From an uncultured Desulfuromonadales bacterium (lineage in GTDB: Bacteria; Desulfobacterota; Desulfuromonadia; Geobacterales; CAIOGM01): a DNA stretch of 37,506 nucleotides. A model generated the notes under the pieces. The model was given only the letters and a program-made list of their open reading frames with translations. It had not been told where the DNA came from and made no database searches. This document shows positions 4,451-37,506 of the stretch, one piece after another; within the stretch, counting starts at the first letter, position 1, and each line of letters begins with the position of its first letter. The stretch is taken from the NCBI GenBank assembly GCA_903929485.1, contig CAIYUY010000104.1, forward strand, positions 1-37,506, in the 5' to 3' direction. The position numbers and the translations under genes were made by a program.

Positions 4451-4491
4451 CTTTGCGGTTCCTTTGCGTCCTTTGCGTCTTTCCGGTGAAA
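4451..4491 (+). repeat. TTTGCG-type dispersed repeat, copy 1
   Basis: A 40-base element with three spaced CTTTGCG units ending in CCGGTGAA. It is almost identical, in opposite orientation, to the element at 37461-37506, and a diverged copy lies at 35681-35720. It sits in the 158-bp gap between the two lipoprotein genes. Its function is not known to me; such GCAAAG-rich intergenic elements recur in many bacterial genomes. Confidence 0.75.
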
Positions 4492-5093: not shown

Positions 5094-7280
5094 TTAATTC
5101 AGTATCCTTGGTGTAATGAAAATCAGCAGTTCGGTCTTGAGCTTGCTCTTGGTATTGGATTTGAACAGCCAGCCCAAAACCGGAATATCCACCAGGAACG
5201 GGACTCCGGAGTTGTTCTCCGTGTCATTGTCGATATAGATGCCGCCAATAACGGTGGTCTCGCCACTATGCACAATCAGCTCGGTGGTCGCTTCCTTCTT
5301 GTTAATCGCCGGGGCCGTCCCTCCCGTGGGGACAGCTCCCGGTGAATTATTGGACGCCTTGATCTTCATCATGACGCTGCCGTCCGGTGTGATATGCGGC
5401 GTCACCTCAAGGGAAAGCGCCGCTTCCACGAATTGGGTCACGGCGCCGGTGTTGGCCGTGGTGTTCTGATACGGGATCGACTGCCCCTGGGTGATCTTGG
5501 CCGGCTTGTTGTTCAACGTGGCGATACGTGGCGAGGAGATAACCTTGATCATCTCGGCGGTGACAGCCGCGGAGAGCCGCAGGTCCACATTGACGCTACT
5601 GGCCAGGGAGCCGAAAGAGATCCCCGTGGCCATCCCCGGTCCGTAGGTACCGCTGAGCTGCGGCGCGGTAACCGCCCCCCCGAACCCGGTGCTGAGACTG
5701 TTCAGACCCAGAAATGAGGCGGACGGATCACGATAATGAAATCCCCACTGGATACCCAGATCACGGGTAAAGCTGTCCGTGGCCTCGACGATACGCGCCT
5801 CGATGAGCACCTGCTTTTCCGGGATGTCGATGCTCTCCAGAAACTTCTTCATCCGCTTCAACGCCGGCTCGATGTCGGTGACGATGACCTTGTTGGTCCG
5901 TTCATCCTGGGTCATGGAACTGTCCACGCGACCGCTCCCCAGGCTCCTGAACTGAGCGACCACATCGGAGGTCTGGGCGAAGTTTACGTCAAACACCCGG
6001 GTCTGAAGCTCCATCATCTTTTCCCGGCTCTTTTTCGCATCCATGGCCTCCTCGTCGGAGCTCTTGAATTTACTCCGAGGCTTGATCAGGACGATGTTCC
6101 CTTCACTCCTCATGGCAAGTCCCTTGCTCTCCAGGATCATCTCCAGAGCCTGATCCCAGGGGACATTCACCAGTTTGAGAGTGATGACGCCGGAGACGTC
6201 ATCCCCCAAAAGGATATTGAGATTGCTCACCTCGGCGATAAGCTGAAAGATCTTACGGATATCCGCATCCACGAATTCAAGCGTGACCTTCCGCCCTGTG
6301 TAGATCTTCCCGGCGCCGGGTGAGTCGGGGGAAACAGGTAGAGGTTGAGGTTGAAGTTGAGGTTGAGGTTGAGCAGGGGGGGCCTTCTCTTTCAGCTTGG
6401 GATGAAAGATATTCAGAACCACCGTCCCATCCTCCTGGCTTAAAGTCCAGGTGGCGGCGCGATTCAGTTTGACGAGGACCCTCGTCTCGGGAACCCCCTT
6501 CACCATGAGTTGAGAAGGGATTACCGCCTGGACCGCGCTGGGAAAGGATCCGGTATCCAGGGGGCGTCGCAGGGCGCGAGGAAGAGAGCACTTTTTCACA
6601 AAGAAAGTTACCCCTTCCGAATTCTTGAATGGTTGTGTCGCCAGACAGGAACCGCCCACTTGCATGGTGATCCGTGAACCGGTATCCACGATCCCGAAAT
6701 CAACTGCTTCGACCTTTGACGGGGAAGGGTCACGGGCTGTTGGGGAAGCCCCTCTTGCCGGATTACCCGGAGGGACAACCGGCGGGCCCGGTTGGAACCG
6801 TACTCCCCGGTCGGTCATGATCACCCTCGCCTGCCCGAAACCACCGGACTTTCCTTCAAAGACGATGCGGCTTTTCCCCTCCGATTCAACAAGACGGGCG
6901 CTCCGGATGCCGAAAGCATCCAGGGGGACCGTCTCCCCCCCCACGGCGACCCGTACACCGGGGAGATCAATGACGAATCGATCCGGATTCGCCATGGGGA
7001 AAGCCGTATAACTCGTAACCGGCCCATCGGTGACAAGGTCGATCCCTTCCGGGGTTGCAACGACCTCCAAGAGTTTCCGGACGGTCACGAGGGAAGATCC
7101 CGACGTGGCGGGCCGGCCGGCGACTTCCACCTTGGTCGCCCCATGCTCCGACTCGACCCCTGACCCGACGGGGGGTGGGAGTTCCTGACCCAAGGCAGGG
7201 CTATTCAGACAAGATGCCGCAAGACAGAGTGTCAGGACTTGGGCGCCGACCTTGATGGATTTCCTGATCTGCGTGTGCAT
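5094..7280 (-). CDS. pilQ: type IV pilus secretin PilQ
   Basis: Outer-membrane secretin forming the channel through which the type IV pilus passes. The chosen start (MHTQIRK) follows GGAGAGG and leaves 10 bp after pilP; an in-frame upstream ATG at 7364 would lie inside pilP and gives a poor signal peptide. The 728 residues show a signal peptide, a first AMIN domain (about 63-145, peptidoglycan-binding), a second AMIN-like region, a Pro/Gln linker (about 297-325), a secretin N0/STN domain (VTLEFVDADIRKIFQLIAE), an N1 domain, and the C-terminal secretin domain with VISSPRIATLNN and VPFLVDIPVLGWLF motifs ending in ITPRILN. Domain order and length fit PilQ. It is the last pil gene of the run, and a lipoprotein gene follows directly. 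Confidence 0.95.
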   Translation of the reverse strand: MHTQIRKSIKVGAQVLTLCLAASCLNSPALGQELPPPVGSGVESEHGATKVEVAGRPATSGSSLVTVRKLLEVVATPEGIDLVTDGPVTSYTAFPMANPDRFVIDLPGVRVAVGGETVPLDAFGIRSARLVESEGKSRIVFEGKSGGFGQARVIMTDRGVRFQPGPPVVPPGNPARGASPTARDPSPSKVEAVDFGIVDTGSRITMQVGGSCLATQPFKNSEGVTFFVKKCSLPRALRRPLDTGSFPSAVQAVIPSQLMVKGVPETRVLVKLNRAATWTLSQEDGTVVLNIFHPKLKEKAPPAQPQPQLQPQPLPVSPDSPGAGKIYTGRKVTLEFVDADIRKIFQLIAEVSNLNILLGDDVSGVITLKLVNVPWDQALEMILESKGLAMRSEGNIVLIKPRSKFKSSDEEAMDAKKSREKMMELQTRVFDVNFAQTSDVVAQFRSLGSGRVDSSMTQDERTNKVIVTDIEPALKRMKKFLESIDIPEKQVLIEARIVEATDSFTRDLGIQWGFHYRDPSASFLGLNSLSTGFGGAVTAPQLSGTYGPGMATGISFGSLASSVNVDLRLSAAVTAEMIKVISSPRIATLNNKPAKITQGQSIPYQNTTANTGAVTQFVEAALSLEVTPHITPDGSVMMKIKASNNSPGAVPTGGTAPAINKKEATTELIVHSGETTVIGGIYIDNDTENNSGVPFLVDIPVLGWLFKSNTKSKLKTELLIFITPRILN
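6341..6373 (+). repeat. GAGGTT hexamer repeat inside pilQ
   Basis: Five tandem GAGGTT units, one altered to GAAGTT, plus a partial unit. On the coding strand they encode the alternating Pro/Gln linker of PilQ (PQPQLQPQP) between the AMIN-type region and the secretin N domain. Being in frame, changes by whole units would lengthen or shorten the linker by two residues. Confidence 0.8.
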
Positions 7281-13693: not shown

Positions 13694-14296
13694 TCACTGG
13701 TCAGCTTTATCGGCAAAGATATCCCGCAGCTCCACGATCAGCTCCCCCAGGATCGGTACGGGAAGCTGCTCCGTTGCTGCGTAAAGTTCGTGACTCCCAA
13801 ATTTACCGTCCTCCCTCAACCTGAAAAGCATGACCGTCCGATCCACCGGCTGCACCACCCAATACTCCCGCACGCCGTGACGTTGGTAGAGATTGAATTT
13901 ATCCCGCAAATCCCGCTGAGCGCTCCCCGGGGAAAGGATTTCCACCACCAGATCGGGGGCGCCGCGACACCCCTTCTCATCCAGCTTGGTCCTGTCACAA
14001 ATCACTACCAAGTCAGGCTGCACCACGGTGGGAATTTCATCTTCGGCCTGCTCCGGATAATCAGGGAGCCTTACGTCAAAGGGGGCGGCAAAGGCCTGAC
14101 ACGGTTTATCCTTGAGATGATTGCCGATCTGCCTGCCAAGCTCAAAGAGTATCCTTTGATGTGTGCGTGAAGGCGCCGGGCTCATGGCGTAAGCTTCGCC
14201 ATCAATCAGCTCCCAACGCTCACCGTCATCCCAAGTCAGATAAAGTCCATAGGTAAAATGATCCGCCATTGTCCCGGTTCGTTGCGCATGCGCCAT
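13694..14296 (-). CDS. Uma2-family (DUF820) putative endonuclease
   Basis: A 200-residue protein of the Uma2/DUF820 family, a restriction-endonuclease-like (PD-(D/E)xK) fold. Visible hallmarks are ERWELIDGEAYAM near the N-terminus, SRTHQRI, PDLVVICD and APDLVVEILSPGSAQRDL with the catalytic-type D...E, followed by REYWVVQPVDRTV. GGGGGAAAAGCC precedes the ATG. It sits between purL (12 bp away) and purQ (overlap or 14 bp), so it is embedded in the purine operon. Family members are common in cyanobacteria and some other bacteria, and their cellular role is poorly known. No inverted repeats or other mobility signals were seen around it. Confidence 0.88.
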   Translation of the reverse strand: MAHAQRTGTMADHFTYGLYLTWDDGERWELIDGEAYAMSPAPSRTHQRILFELGRQIGNHLKDKPCQAFAAPFDVRLPDYPEQAEDEIPTVVQPDLVVICDRTKLDEKGCRGAPDLVVEILSPGSAQRDLRDKFNLYQRHGVREYWVVQPVDRTVMLFRLREDGKFGSHELYAATEQLPVPILGELIVELRDIFADKADQ

Positions 14297-17348: not shown

Positions 17349-18443
17349 TCAATCCTTTTTCATTATCATCATCCGGATGGGGAACGGAATCTCGATCTTT
17401 CGCTCCCGGAACCGGCTGATGATGAGTGAGTTGACCTGATCGGTCACACTGAGAAGCTTGGTATATTCGGCAACCCAGAAGAAGAGGGTCATGTTAAGGG
17501 CATTCTCCCCGAAGGAGACGAAATACGCCTCCGGGCCGGGATCGGCCAGGACTGCATTCACCTCCCGGGCGATCTCCAGGAGGAGCTGTTTCACAACCTC
17601 CACGTCGCTTTCGTATCCCACTCCGATGTTTATCCGTCCCCTCACCCGAAAATCGGGAAAAGAGTGATTGGTCACCATGGCGTTGCAGAGGTCGGAGTTG
17701 GGGATGACCAGGAGCATATTATCCAGGGTTCTGATCCTGGTGCTCCTCAAGCCGATATCCGCAACGTCGCCCACCTGCCCCCCCGTCAATTGAATCCGGT
17801 CGCCGATGCGAAACGGGCGATCCAGCATGAGGGTGAATCCGGAGATGACCTGGGCCAGGGTATCCTTGGCCGCCATCCCGATGGCCAGGGAGCCGATACC
17901 CAGGGCGGTGACAAAGGAGAGGATGTCAAAGTTGAAATGCTTGAGAGTGATCATCAGGGAGGTGATGATCAGGAACAGGGTCCCCAGTTTTTCCACCAGG
18001 GGGGCCAGTTGCCGATCCAGCCCTTCATTGCCGCGCTCCGCCATCCGGGTGGCGTACCACTCCAGCAGTTCATGGAGGGAGCGGTAGCCGATATTCGTCA
18101 GGATGATGACATTGGCGATGAAGAGGGTCCCGGCGGCCACCAGATGCACCTTCTCCGGCAGCGGCAGGGCGCGGACCGCCAGGAACAGCCCCGCAAAAAA
18201 GATCAGCAGGGAGACCGGAGGGGTAATCCTGCTCAGTATCCGGTCATCCAGATCGGTACGGGTTATGGCGGTGAACCGGGGCCCCCAGGTCGTGAGAAGA
18301 TACCTGACCGCCAGTGAGAGTCCCCAGAACAGGGCGATAATGAGGAGCGCCAGGAGCCCCTCCTTGAGCCAGAAGAGGATCACCCCCTCTCCTTCCCTCA
18401 CCAGGAAGAGTTCCAGATATCTAGACACCGAAGACCCTGGCAA
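17349..18443 (-). CDS. MscS-type mechanosensitive channel
   Basis: A 364-residue small-conductance mechanosensitive channel that would release solutes under osmotic downshock. Hydrophobic helices lie at about residues 22-50, 75-95, 102-120 and 150-165. The pore-lining helix is the Gly/Ala-rich segment ALGIGSLAIGMAAKDTLAQ near 180-200. It is followed by the MscS beta domain (LDRPFRIGDRIQL, VPNSD-like VIPNSDLCNAMVTNHS) and the C-terminal alpha/beta domain. The ATG overlaps the end of purB by 23 bases and the stop is 4 bp before purL, so it is locked within the purine operon. A direct link with purine synthesis is not evident. Confidence 0.92.
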   Translation of the reverse strand: MPGSSVSRYLELFLVREGEGVILFWLKEGLLALLIIALFWGLSLAVRYLLTTWGPRFTAITRTDLDDRILSRITPPVSLLIFFAGLFLAVRALPLPEKVHLVAAGTLFIANVIILTNIGYRSLHELLEWYATRMAERGNEGLDRQLAPLVEKLGTLFLIITSLMITLKHFNFDILSFVTALGIGSLAIGMAAKDTLAQVISGFTLMLDRPFRIGDRIQLTGGQVGDVADIGLRSTRIRTLDNMLLVIPNSDLCNAMVTNHSFPDFRVRGRINIGVGYESDVEVVKQLLLEIAREVNAVLADPGPEAYFVSFGENALNMTLFFWVAEYTKLLSVTDQVNSLIISRFRERKIEIPFPIRMMIMKKD

Positions 18444-19716
18444 AGATGGTGTTCACATGCTTCAGGTGATACCCAAGATCGAAGGATTCGCGAATCTTTC
18501 CTTCCCCCAGTGCTCCCACCACCTCCTGGTCCGCCAGCAGTTCCGTCTGAAAATCCTTCCCTTCCTCCCAGACCTTCATGGCGTTCTTCTGCACCAACCG
18601 GTAGGCGTCTTCACGGGAAACCCCAGCCTGGGTCAGATCCAGGAGGATCTTCTGGGAGAAGACCAGACCCTTCATCTGGTTCAGGTTTCTCAGCATGTTC
18701 TCGGGATAGACCACGAGATTCTTGATGAGGCCGTTTAAGCGGCGGAGGGAAAAATCCAGGGCCACCGTGGCGTCCGGGGCGATATACCGCTCCACGGAGG
18801 AGTGGGAGATGTCCCGCTCATGCCAGAGCGCCACATTTTCCAGGGCGGGGATGCAGAAGGAGCGGATGTAGCGGGCCTGGCCGGTGAGATTCTCGGAGAG
18901 GATCGGGTTCCGCTTGTGAGGCATGGCCGACGACCCCTTTTGCCCCTTGCTGAAGAATTCCTCAACCTCCAGTACTTCGGTCCGCTGCAGGTGCCGAATC
19001 TCCACGACGATCCGCTCCAGGGAGGATGCGATGATGGAGAGGGTGCAGAAGTATTCGGCATGGCGGTCCCGGGGGATGACCTGGGTGGAGACCGGTTCGG
19101 GAGCCAGCCCCATCTTCCGGCAGACATATTCCTCCACGTAGGGGTCAATATTGGCAAACGTTCCCACCGCCCCGGAGATGGCGCCGGTGGCGATATTTTC
19201 ACGGGCCGCCGTCAACCGCTTCTTGTTACGCTCCATTTCGGCATACCAGGAGGCCAGCTTGAGGCCGAAGGTGACCGGCTCGGCATGGACGCCGTGGGAA
19301 CGGCCGATGCAGACCGTATCCTTATGCTCAAAGGCCCTGATCTTGAGGGATTCCAGGACCATGTCCAGGTCGGTCAGAAGCTCGTCGGCGGCCTGGGTCA
19401 GCTGCACGGAGAGGCAGGTATCCAGCACGTCGGAAGAGGTCATCCCCTGATGGATGAAACGGGCCTCGGGTCCCACATGCTCGGCCACGGAGGTGAGGAA
19501 GGCGATGACGTCATGCTTCACCTCGGCCTCGATCATATCGATGCGGGCGATGTCGAAATTCCCCTTGTCCCGGATGATCGGCACGACCTCCTTGGGGATG
19601 ACCCCCAGTTCCGCCTGGGCCTCGCAGGCCAGGGTTTCGATCTCCAGCCAGATACGGAAGCGGTTTTCCGGCTCCCAGATGTTCGCCATCTCCTGGCGGG
19701 TATAACGTGGAATCAT
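18421..19716 (-). CDS. purB: adenylosuccinate lyase
   Basis: Cleaves SAICAR and adenylosuccinate in IMP and AMP synthesis. The 431 residues start MIPRYTRQEM, a typical opening. The fumarase/aspartase superfamily signature GSSAMPHKRNP near residues 263-273 is intact, as are GMTSSDVLDT and the catalytic His region RSHGVHAEP. AAGGAGACCTT precedes the ATG. It is the first gene of the purB, channel, purL, uma2, purQ, purF, pyrE, ykgJ run. A heptamer tandem repeat ends 14 bp upstream of the start, so the leader of the operon is unusual. Confidence 0.96.
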   Translation of the reverse strand: MIPRYTRQEMANIWEPENRFRIWLEIETLACEAQAELGVIPKEVVPIIRDKGNFDIARIDMIEAEVKHDVIAFLTSVAEHVGPEARFIHQGMTSSDVLDTCLSVQLTQAADELLTDLDMVLESLKIRAFEHKDTVCIGRSHGVHAEPVTFGLKLASWYAEMERNKKRLTAARENIATGAISGAVGTFANIDPYVEEYVCRKMGLAPEPVSTQVIPRDRHAEYFCTLSIIASSLERIVVEIRHLQRTEVLEVEEFFSKGQKGSSAMPHKRNPILSENLTGQARYIRSFCIPALENVALWHERDISHSSVERYIAPDATVALDFSLRRLNGLIKNLVVYPENMLRNLNQMKGLVFSQKILLDLTQAGVSREDAYRLVQKNAMKVWEEGKDFQTELLADQEVVGALGEGKIRESFDLGYHLKHVNTIFARVFGV

Positions 19717-19730
19717 AAGGTCTCCTTGGC

Positions 19731-19849
19731 GGTTCGGGGTTCGGGGTTCGGGGTTCTAGGTTCTAGGTTCTAGGTTCTAGGTTCTAGGTTCTAGGTTCTA
19801 GGTTCTAGGTTCTAGGTTCTAGGTTCTAGGTTCTAGGTTCTAGGTTCTA
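19731..19849 (+). repeat. 17-unit heptamer tandem repeat upstream of purB
   Basis: Three GGTTCGG units are followed by fourteen perfect GGTTCTA units, 119 bases in all. It ends 14 bp before the purB ATG, directly before the AAGGAGACC ribosome-binding site. Seen from purB the unit is TAGAACC. Stops occur in every reading, so it is non-coding. The unit contains CTAG, a tetramer usually scarce in bacterial genomes. The perfect identity of the fourteen units suggests recent or continuing slippage. Confidence 0.95.
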
Positions 19850-19878
19850 GACTGTAACGTAGAACGTCGAACATAGAA

Positions 19879-19893
19879 CTGTTTTTAAAACAG
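19879..19893. promoter_or_regulatory. 15-bp palindrome at the walJ-purB junction
   Basis: CTGTTTTTAAAACAG has seven-base arms around one central base. It overlaps the stop codon of the metallo-hydrolase gene and lies just upstream of the heptamer array. It could be an operator for purB or a weak bidirectional terminator; neither can be decided from sequence. Confidence 0.35.
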
Positions 19894-20649
19894 CGCCGTT
19901 GTTCTGTCTTGACAGCCGATGGCCACGCGAGGAGAACAACAGGTGGCGCCGTCAAGGAGGGCACGCGCCTCGCCCATGGCCAGGTCGGGGTGATTGTTAA
20001 CTTCGGAAAGATGGGCCAGAAAGAGGGATTCAAGCCCTTCGTGGAGCAGCTCGGCCAGAAGAGTCCGGGATTCCACATTGGAAAGATGACCGTGACGGGA
20101 TTTGATCCGCTGCTTGAGATGCCAGGGATAGGGGCCGTTCAAAAGCATCTCCTCGTCATGGTTGAATTCCAGCACCAGGGAACGGCAACGCTTCAGTTTT
20201 TCCTGCACCAGACGGGTCGCCACCCCCAGATCGGTGGCGCAGCCGGCAATCCCCTCGCGACTCTCCACGAGAAAACCGACGGGGTCGACGGTATCATGAG
20301 TAATGGGAAACGGGTCGATGAGGAGGTCGCGAAAAGCAAAGGAGTGTCCCGCCTCGAACTCCATGATCTGACACTTCTTCAACAGGGGGTCAATCTGTCG
20401 CGCCGTGGGATAGCTCACTACCACCGGAATCTTCAGTTTTCGCGCCAAAGTTCCCACACTCCGGATATGGTCGGTATGCTCGTGAGTTACCAGGATGGCG
20501 TTGAGAGTTTCCGCGTCCACCCCCACCGCGGCAAGGCGGAGCGTCAGCTCCTTGGCGGAGAGTCCGGCGTCGATGAGGAGACGGGTATCACCCGACTCCA
20601 GATAAACCGAATTCCCCTTGCTCCCGCTTGCCAACAGGCAGACCCGCAC
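19885..20649 (-). CDS. WalJ/YycJ-like metallo-beta-lactamase-fold hydrolase
   Basis: A 254-residue MBL-fold protein. The N-terminus MRVCLLASGSKGNS and the metal motif THEHTDH near residues 55-61, with later HD (ITHDTVDPVGF), D (CATDLG) and H (LAHLSEVNNH), match the YycJ/WalJ subfamily. Members are exonuclease-like hydrolases linked to DNA metabolism or the WalRK system in Firmicutes; here there is no walRK nearby. The protein is full length. It is followed by the heptamer repeat and purB, and may or may not share their transcript. Confidence 0.88.
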   Translation of the reverse strand: MRVCLLASGSKGNSVYLESGDTRLLIDAGLSAKELTLRLAAVGVDAETLNAILVTHEHTDHIRSVGTLARKLKIPVVVSYPTARQIDPLLKKCQIMEFEAGHSFAFRDLLIDPFPITHDTVDPVGFLVESREGIAGCATDLGVATRLVQEKLKRCRSLVLEFNHDEEMLLNGPYPWHLKQRIKSRHGHLSNVESRTLLAELLHEGLESLFLAHLSEVNNHPDLAMGEARALLDGATCCSPRVAIGCQDRTTALF

Positions 20650-21006
20650 CAGCCCCTCCGATTATACAACGTAAGAATCCGCGGCGGCATCCCGGCGGAG
20701 AAACAACCCTGTTCTTATAACAGGAATAGCGAGGTGGGTTCAAGGATAAAAGGGAGCAAGGGGGAATCAACCATGTCGGAAGGAATCTTCCTCAACCCCC
20801 TAGCAGCCCGTCCCGCTTAACGTTTTGGATCAGGTTAACGATTCAACAGACAAAAAAATTACGGCGGATAGCGAAAAAACAAGCAGAACAGAGCAGAAAG
20901 TCCTCCTGATTTTCAACTGGTTGCTTGATCGGCGGAAAGGGAATCAACCCTAAATCGAGCTTAACTCTTTCCTGGCCGGATCAAAACCTGCTGACGGACT
21001 ACCAGA
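20650..21006. other. 357-bp gap without a supported gene
   Basis: No convincing coding frame or RNA gene was seen. It holds a 17-bp inverted repeat (20708-20724) and a 15-codon open frame on the plus strand at 20773-20820 behind AGGGGG, too short to call. The sequence GGGAATCAACC occurs twice (near 20761 and 20939). The promoter of the metallo-hydrolase gene should lie here. Confidence 0.5.
20708..20724. promoter_or_regulatory. inverted repeat upstream of the walJ-like gene
   Basis: CCTGTT-CTTAT-AACAGG has perfect six-base arms with a five-base spacer, about 60 bp upstream of the metallo-hydrolase start. It is a plausible operator. There is no T-run, so it does not look like a terminator. 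The regulator is unknown. Confidence 0.35.
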
Positions 21007-21231
21007 TCATAGTGAGGCAAGCTGACCGAATGCACCCGACCCACGGCCTCCGGCTACCGGAACCCGGTGCCGGCTATAGCCCTGCCGAGCCACAACCCGC
21101 CTCTTGAGCCGTGCCGTCGCCTTATGCACAGACACTGCCGGTACTATTCGCGGATCCCTCAACAGGTCACCCACCGTCAGATAACCGCAGTAACCGACCA
21201 AGGCCAGACAAAAGATAAAAAATGGTTCCAT
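21007..21231 (-). CDS. small single-span membrane protein
   Basis: A 74-residue frame beginning MEPFFIFCLALVGYCGYLTV, a hydrophobic segment long enough for one transmembrane helix, followed by a basic Arg/Lys-rich tail. The ATG is preceded by AGGAGAGTTACC, a strong ribosome-binding site, and lies 43 bp after the lexA stop. These points favour a real gene, perhaps read through from lexA. No family was recognised. The far C-terminus is Gly/Ser-rich and of low complexity. Confidence 0.5.
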   Translation of the reverse strand: MEPFFIFCLALVGYCGYLTVGDLLRDPRIVPAVSVHKATARLKRRVVARQGYSRHRVPVAGGRGSGAFGQLASL

Positions 21232-21274
21232 GGTAACTCTCCTGTTCTAGTGTGGAAACACCCCATGACGTCAC

Positions 21275-21937
21275 TTACCCCATGGCGCGATAGAGGCCGA
21301 CGACCTTGCCGACAATGGTTACCTCCTGATCGGGGAAAGCATAGATCGGCTCATAGTTGGGATTAGCCGGCTGTAGTCGAATACGATCCCCCTCGTGATG
21401 GAACCACTTCAGTGTCGCCTCGCCATCCACCATGGCCACCACCATGTCCCGGTTCGCCGCCGTGAGCTGAGGCCTGATGAGCGCCAGATCTCCCTCGAAC
21501 ACCCCGGCGTTGATCATCGAGTCCCCCTTCACCTTGAGGCAGAACGCAGCCCCCGTCTTGCGGGCCACGGCATCGGCAATCGGATGGTAGTCCATGATAT
21601 CCTCCATGGCCGGCTGGGGTATTCCGGCCCGAACCATGCCCACCACCGGCAGGAACACCGCCGCCAGGCACTCGCCGATACTGTCCAAAAATCCGCCTCT
21701 CTCCGGAGAGACCTCCACCTGTTTTCTGGGAAGGAGAGTAATTCCGCGGGATCCCTTGGCCTGTCTCTTGATGTACCCCTTCTTCTCCAGAGCCTCCAAG
21801 TGCCGTGTGGCGCTCAAGGTGCCGGTAATCTTCATATGAGCGGAGATCTCGCGCAGTGTAGGCGGGAAACCATGCTCTCCCAGGTAGTCCCGGAGAAAAC
21901 TGAGGGCTTCGCGCTGGCGATCGGTAAGTGGGTTCAT
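21275..21937 (-). CDS. lexA: LexA repressor
   Basis: SOS-response repressor and RecA-stimulated self-cleaving protease, 220 residues from the chosen ATG (MNPLTDRQREALSFL), which follows GAGGACGCC. An in-frame ATG 36 bases upstream lacks a good site. The winged-helix DNA-binding domain covers about residues 1-68, with FPPTLREIS as the recognition-helix region. The cleavage bond is Ala104-Gly105 (VRAGIP). Catalytic Ser140 (KGDSM) and Lys177 (GEATLKW) are present. The linker between domains is somewhat long. A near-consensus sigma70 promoter lies just upstream. Confidence 0.95.
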   Translation of the reverse strand: MNPLTDRQREALSFLRDYLGEHGFPPTLREISAHMKITGTLSATRHLEALEKKGYIKRQAKGSRGITLLPRKQVEVSPERGGFLDSIGECLAAVFLPVVGMVRAGIPQPAMEDIMDYHPIADAVARKTGAAFCLKVKGDSMINAGVFEGDLALIRPQLTAANRDMVVAMVDGEATLKWFHHEGDRIRLQPANPNYEPIYAFPDQEVTIVGKVVGLYRAMG

Positions 21938-35680: not shown

Positions 35681-35720
35681 GCTTTCCTCTGCGTCCCTCG
35701 GCGTCCTCTGCGGTGAAAAC
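35681..35720 (+). repeat. TTTGCG-type dispersed repeat, diverged copy 2
   Basis: Units CTCTGCGTCC, CTCGGCGTCC and CTCTGCGGTGAAA follow the layout of the elements at 4451-4491 and 37461-37506, with several substitutions. Same orientation as copy 1. Confidence 0.6.
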
Positions 35721-37461: not shown

Positions 37462-37506
37462 TCACCGCAAAGACGCAAAGGACGCAAAGGAACCGCAAAG
37501 TAAAAG
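37461..37506 (-). repeat. TTTGCG-type dispersed repeat, copy 3
   Basis: Read on the minus strand this matches the element at 4451-4491 over 40 bases with a single difference (TTTGCGG against TTTCCGG). It runs to the window edge and abuts the truncated fragment before it. Confidence 0.75.

Follow-up and report, generated by a model that had tools for sequence, protein, structure and literature searches.

The heptamer array in front of purB is one arm of an inverted repeat element, and since the same element occupies dozens of other gaps in this genome and recurs in many related bacteria, the array is unlikely to be a switch specific to purine synthesis. We favor, at a probability of roughly 0.55, the reading that it belongs to a family of dispersed intercistronic repeat elements that are most likely transcribed as hairpins within operons. 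The purB array is by far the strongest tandem array, and the sole long one, that Tandem Repeats Finder reports in the window, by which we mean the entire 37,506-nucleotide stretch analysed. The genome to which it belongs comprises 369 contigs (99.25% completeness), and three congeneric genomes were compared with it.

The first-pass annotation described a simple tandem at 19731-19849, made of three GGTTCGG and fourteen GGTTCTA units, with 14 bp between it and the purB ATG. These units and positions are exact (Tandem Repeats Finder gives GGTTCGG x3 at 19731-19751 and GGTTCTA x14.1 at 19752-19850; score 198, 100% matches), and 17 units of 7 bp account for the span of 119 bp. What was overlooked is a second, shorter arm facing the opposite way, GAAC GTC GAAC ATA GAAC at 19862-19879, 11 bp past the array end. 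Because of this arm, the object at purB spans about 148 bp and is an inverted element with the general form (GTTCNNN)n-GTT-loop-AAC-(NNNGAAC)m, and the array is its long arm. The features of the region are as follows.

18421-19716, minus strand: purB, adenylosuccinate lyase (PF00206 and PF10397), the downstream gene
19717-19884, minus strand: intercistronic spacer between the MBL-fold gene and purB, 168 bp
19722-19727, minus strand: purB ribosome-binding site AAGGAG, by direct reading
19731-19751, plus strand: three GGTTCGG units (CCGAACC in the purB sense), the purB-proximal end of the long arm
19752-19850, plus strand: fourteen perfect GGTTCTA units (TAGAACC in the purB sense), the recently expanded part of the long arm
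19732-19879, no strand assigned: the entire inverted heptad element, with 17 GTTC and 3 GAAC cores on the plus strand
19837-19865, no strand assigned: centre of the inverted element, GTTCTAGGTTCTAGACTGTAACGTAGAAC, a pattern match to GTTCNNNGTT-N(1-9)-AACNNNGAAC
19862-19879, minus strand: short arm in the opposite direction, with GAAC cores at 19862, 19869 and 19876 (GTTCTAT GTTCGAC GTTCTAC in the purB sense)
19885-20649, minus strand: metallo-beta-lactamase-fold (MBL-fold) gene, upstream and codirectional, its stop codon lying 5 nt before the element's first GTTC in the sense direction

Read in the purB sense, the order is thus the MBL-fold stop codon, 5 nt, GTTCTAT GTTCGAC GTTCTAC, the centre GTTACAGTC, fourteen TAGAACC, three CCGAACC, AAGGAG and purB, and the inverted element fills the 168-bp spacer almost completely. 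The array had been noted to be rich in CTAG tetramers, and we count 14, one at every GGTTCTA-G junction; the only GGGG runs are three, contributed by the three GGTTCGG units. The sense RNA of the spacer has a predicted fold of -39.5 kcal/mol (z = -6.87). Recent slippage had been proposed from the fourteen identical units, and they do indicate a recent expansion, probably through slippage in one arm.

The purB ATG is at 19716 on the minus strand, and the 14 bp separating it from the array (19717-19730) contain the AAGGAG. Pfam assignments and open reading frame calls bear out the run of eight genes that had been recognized (purB, an MscS-type channel, purL, Uma2, purQ, purF, a phosphoribosyltransferase and a CxxCxxCC protein), with the correction that a ninth codirectional gene, the MBL-fold gene, lies directly upstream of purB. 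For that reason the array sits in an intercistronic spacer with no obvious promoter region, and a location within a transcribed leader, one of the two arrangements envisaged earlier, is probable. The other, a promoter inside the array with spacing set by unit number, finds no support in a sigma-70 scan of 19600-21350, which gave no match and no promoter-like site at the array; a bare TATAAT is present just upstream of the MBL-fold gene. A search for intrinsic (Rho-independent) terminators, a GC-rich hairpin followed by a T-run, found no such site in 19717-19884, and Rfam covariance models gave no match at E <= 1 between 18000 and 22000. We also note two unusual passengers in the purine run by Pfam, a Uma2-type putative endonuclease gene (13694-14296) between purL and purQ and the MscS-type channel gene (17349-18383) between purB and purL.

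Genome-wide, three GTTCNNN units followed by GTTC occur 222 times in comparison with 3 occurrences of a reversed control (overlapping counts, both strands). At least 56 separate elements are present, mostly between codirectional genes, these element counts being lower bounds gathered from the matches listed and the stretches retrieved. The orientation is strict: the inward pattern GTTCNNNGTTC-N(3-33)-GAACNNNGAAC is found 60, 64, 76 and 26 times in the four congeneric genomes (226 in all, overlapping counts) and the outward order GAAC...GTTC not once in the same four. The centre is typically GTT-(1-4 nt)-AAC and the arms are frequently very unequal, as with 17 and 3 units at purB; many arrays have no second arm detectable by the criterion used. 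Most elements lie outside called coding sequence. Several are found no more than about 300 bp from the end of a contig (L147 at 5-127, the start of contig C26, as well as L172, L176, L183, L193 and others), which suggests that long arrays break or limit assembly, and that the unit counts of the longest may be uncertain. Since other heptads, of the TGAATGG, TTTCACC and ATTCAAC types, adjoin GTTC/GAAC arrays (L166 near 1689-1727, L153 near 3092 and L169 near 3046), several heptamer families may coexist.

The elements are positioned preferentially just behind genes. They start no more than 14 nt after the upstream stop codon in 24 of 35, 23 of 32, 11 of 17 and 12 of 18 codirectional gaps of the four genomes, where a uniform-placement model reserving 12 nt for the ribosome-binding site predicts 15.1, 16.6, 8.2 and 8.2. 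Under stricter filters 19 of 32 elements are near the upstream stop codon versus 11.5 expected (P 0.0002). The modal distance is 4-8 nt, and between codirectional genes the element usually precedes the next ribosome-binding site; the genes were called with a simple codon-usage caller, and single distances may err. Divergent or convergent gaps hold 16 of 118 located intergenic elements by the simple gene caller, roughly in proportion to the number of such gaps, so the role may not be strictly intercistronic. The operon contexts identified by Pfam are varied and include RimP/NusA, two branched-chain (liv)-type ABC ATPases, LarA/FAD oxidase, DprA/TopA, a histidine kinase with a sigma-54 response regulator, and a class II (D/K/N) tRNA synthetase preceding an FtsX-like permease. 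Another element follows an EF-Tu (tuf) gene by Pfam (L178), and at L179 the upstream gene, of the same length, is probably the other tuf copy. One element in a genome from another family has a tRNA-Ser gene on either side (L268), and a purely translational role is therefore excluded at that site.

Comparison of the four congeners shows that sites are kept while their contents change. The purB spacer contains the element in all four, with 17+3, 10+2, 10+2 and 8+3 units, and thus unit number, which the first-pass annotation proposed to compare among related genomes, does differ (four species, one genome each). A homogeneous TAG run at purB is seen only in this genome, and the three sister species mix AAG, AGG, GGG, TAG and AAA. 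The same holds for another spacer, situated downstream of an argH-type locus with one small gene in between: all four have the element, its units being of TAC/TAG type here and of AAG/AGG type in the other three. Among the loci retrieved, both flanks identify 18 orthologous sites in the four genomes, including the purB and argH-type sites, where all four have the element. Beyond the genus, purB matches indicate Geobacter-type bacteria ('Geobacteraceae bacterium', 'Desulfuromonadales bacterium' and 'Geobacter sp. UBA5730', L039-L041). No heptad array was seen in the purB spacers of three named contigs or of 26 loci that represent other families of the order. An MBL-fold gene is present upstream of purB in most relatives, with a spacer that is often 17-60 nt, ranges from 17 to more than 200 and in one instance reaches 639. 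Because this gene pairing is common in other families in which the heptad array was not seen, the pairing predates the element, which is a later occupant of a conserved junction.

The element is widespread. Its centre pattern is present in 45 of 141 genomes examined in the order. Across the phylum, 39 of 395 sampled genomes (25 of 246 genera) match a pattern with 18 fixed bases, with a single match for the reversed-pattern control; only GTTC was searched for across the phylum, so other cores could be equally common. The same anatomy is found in three other families. Among the matching genomes the variable bases depend on lineage (for example GAT and GAG in G011, ACA and ACG in G502 and G210) and GTTC, GTT and AAC are constant, as the pattern requires. 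In stretches chosen regardless of repeats, GAAC/GTTC is the commonest core spaced at 7 nt, with counts that stem from the purB and argH elements themselves. Matching stretches are rare in viral contigs (56 in 2.9 million contigs of IMG/VR). One other family, represented by G502, G210 and G484, has near-identical copies, such as GTTCACAGTTCACAGTTTTTTCAACCGTGAAC seven times in G502, and looks more like a dispersed unit than a set of independent arrays.

Within the arms the core and the remainder of the heptad behave differently. Arms were analysed separately, a core-agnostic phase profile of period-7 regions having mixed both arms and proved hard to read. Of 672 interior units (arms of at least 4 units), 95.7% retain an intact GTTC, where about 24% would be expected at the per-base identity of NNN; the chain rule allows only single missing units and so biases the 95.7% upward, and the gap to 24% is still large. 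Neighbouring units agree at 65, 77 and 67% at positions 5-7 (NNN), position 6 is almost always a purine and position 7 mainly G, and the unit repertoire differs between species while GTTC stays. The next most probable explanation after the intercistronic hairpin, although we hold it to be distinctly less likely, is a neutral or selfish heptamer microsatellite, in which functionless 7-nt slippage products persist in spacers alone, since they would not be tolerated in coding DNA. It would account well for the fourteen identical purB units, for the lengths and unit repertoires that change from species to species, and for the over-representation of heptameric repeats in several bacteria, possibly via polymerase slippage (PMC4692102). 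Slippage and mutation should, however, erode GTTC as fast as NNN, and the intact core, its recurrence in unrelated families, the orientation bias of 226 to 0, the placement behind stop codons and the retention of positions across species all argue against it.

All 39 sense-oriented elements tested are predicted to fold better than their shuffles (z < -2, median -6.7), and the antisense RNA is predicted to be more stable than the sense RNA in 28 of the 39. Pairing next to the loop is unusual in that the two innermost heptads, one from each arm, are perfectly complementary in none of 46 elements (shuffle mean 7.7, P about 0.0005) and, in a looser set, in 2 of 63 compared with 11 expected. This non-complementarity fades outward (3 of 42 versus 5.6 expected, then 6 of 27 versus 5.5), and the commonest difference between innermost heptads is a single base. 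The arms also tend to a polarity: the side next to the stop codon favours AAG, TAC or TAT, and the far side AGG, CAG or TAG. A consistent RNA logic was sought for this, but the preferences of sense and antisense pairing do not agree from one position to the next.

A plausible scenario is that the element is transcribed with its operon as an imperfect hairpin that would separate the upstream from the downstream cistron through 3'-end protection, processing or differential expression, as has been proposed for REP and BIME sequences in operons, and that slippage within the arms would alter its length, the fourteen identical units at purB representing one recent expansion. REP and BIME sequences are likewise palindromic, dispersed and transcribed between operon genes, and differ in that they are not built from heptads in variable number. 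If hairpin stability were all that selection acted on, the never-perfect innermost pairing would be surprising. A more speculative extension, to which we give a minor share of credence, is that a dedicated putative RNA- or DNA-binding factor reads the GTTC heptad element as an intercistronic control element throughout the phylum. Such a factor would recognize the GTTC/GAAC core at 7-nt spacing together with the mismatched hairpin near the loop and tune relative cistron expression in many operons.

An array of sites for a putative DNA-binding protein concerned with chromosome organization or transcription, with the core as recognition tetranucleotide and three heptads (21 bp) making two helical turns, seems improbable. 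Conservation of the core independently of NNN and across families would suit it, and the avoidance of perfect innermost palindromes fits a DNA/protein constraint as well as an RNA one, but the location just after stop codons and the site between two tRNA genes suggest a role at the transcript level. Slightly less credible still is a remnant or copy of a mobile palindromic element of the REP/MITE type, spread by a putative transposase: the elements are dispersed, palindromic and intergenic, and near-identical copies exist in some other families, as with the sevenfold repeat in G502, yet no fixed ends are seen, arm lengths differ in steps of 7, and sites are common to species with completely different units. 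The least probable account is the length-variable switch on purB and nucleotide synthesis put forward in the first-pass annotation, with unit number setting leader length or promoter spacing, for although the array directly adjoins the purB ribosome-binding site, varies in unit number between species and has fourteen perfect units that imply recent change, dozens of equivalent elements lie in unrelated operons here, housekeeping ones included, the element recurs in many other genomes, no promoter-like match is found at the array, the purB units are heterogeneous in the three sister species, and the upstream gene is codirectional with and near purB in many relatives.

A literature search for the literal repeat strings gave no relevant match, and the closest known kind is the paired heptameric repeats of Xanthomonas, GGGAATC or (GGGANTN)n, described together with GGGGA(C/T)T of Nostoc by Rehm et al. 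2015 (PMC4692102). The Xanthomonas repeats form about 70 convergent inverted pairs per genome, usually keep their site between species (83%) with variable length and units, and are associated with all functional gene classes, mostly transcribed and of unknown function (PMC4692102). The GTTC element shares with them a genome-wide distribution of intergenic heptads in which some positions are conserved and others degenerate, a location mostly in codirectional gaps and near stop codons, convergent pairing as inverted repeats, and sites kept between species with changing units and length. It differs in its GTTC core, in arms that meet at a GTT-loop-AAC centre and, among the cases found, always face inward, and in innermost units that avoid perfect complementarity. 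Without a G-tract the GTTC element falls outside the Xanthomonas family proper, and the G-quadruplex proposal made for that family does not carry over; the element is best filed as a variant of the heptameric kind.

Other heptamers are more distant. The TAACTGA direct repeats of marine Beggiatoaceae, Cyanobacteria and Bacteroidetes (MacGregor 2015, PMC4679880) are also dispersed intergenic arrays, often next to start codons and with a proposed post-transcriptional role, but they consist of a single invariant unit, are direct in 169 instances and indirect in 1, lie just before start codons and have no predicted secondary structure. Gmet_H4 of Geobacter metallireducens (Aklujkar et al. 2009, PMC2700814) is likewise a multicopy heptanucleotide element of a Geobacteraceae genome, proposed as a regulatory RNA element; it consists of four tandem GGGACCG heptanucleotides, occurs in 49 copies, and differs in its unit, its fixed number of four and its locations, which include the inside of genes. 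Overlap between the GTTC element and the multicopy sequence families of G. bemidjiensis (PMC2996986) is possible. Simple sequence repeats of phase-variable genes resemble the purB array in their near-identical, slippage-prone units, but such contingency loci are limited to one or a few genes, unlike the GTTC elements in housekeeping and other operons. Intergenic heptamer repeats are thus reported from Xanthomonas, cyanobacteria, Beggiatoaceae and Geobacter with no agreed function, and the GTTC family makes function testable through its constant core with a drifting remainder, strict inward orientation, site conservation between species, post-stop preference in well-known operons (rimP-nusA, tuf, liv) and imperfect pairing beside the loop. 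It also cautions against taking a single heptamer array for a gene-specific phase switch.

Among other candidates, the Gram-positive LexA box GAAC-N4-GTTC was considered, a lexA gene being nearby, and was rejected: the elements run in the opposite order, GTTC...GAAC, and the doubled GAAC-then-GTTC arrangement is absent. A second intergenic repeat type, whose period is close to 9, is represented by TCCTTTGCG, TCCTCTGCG, CGCAAAGGA and 'cctctgcggtgaa'-like strings at 4451-4479, 35685-35712 and 37466-37491 of the window, and similar repeats are seen in the purB spacers of relatives (L271, L274, L287, L290 and L292). Tandem Repeats Finder also reports six copies of the hexamer AGGTTG within a coding region at 6336-6373 of the window.
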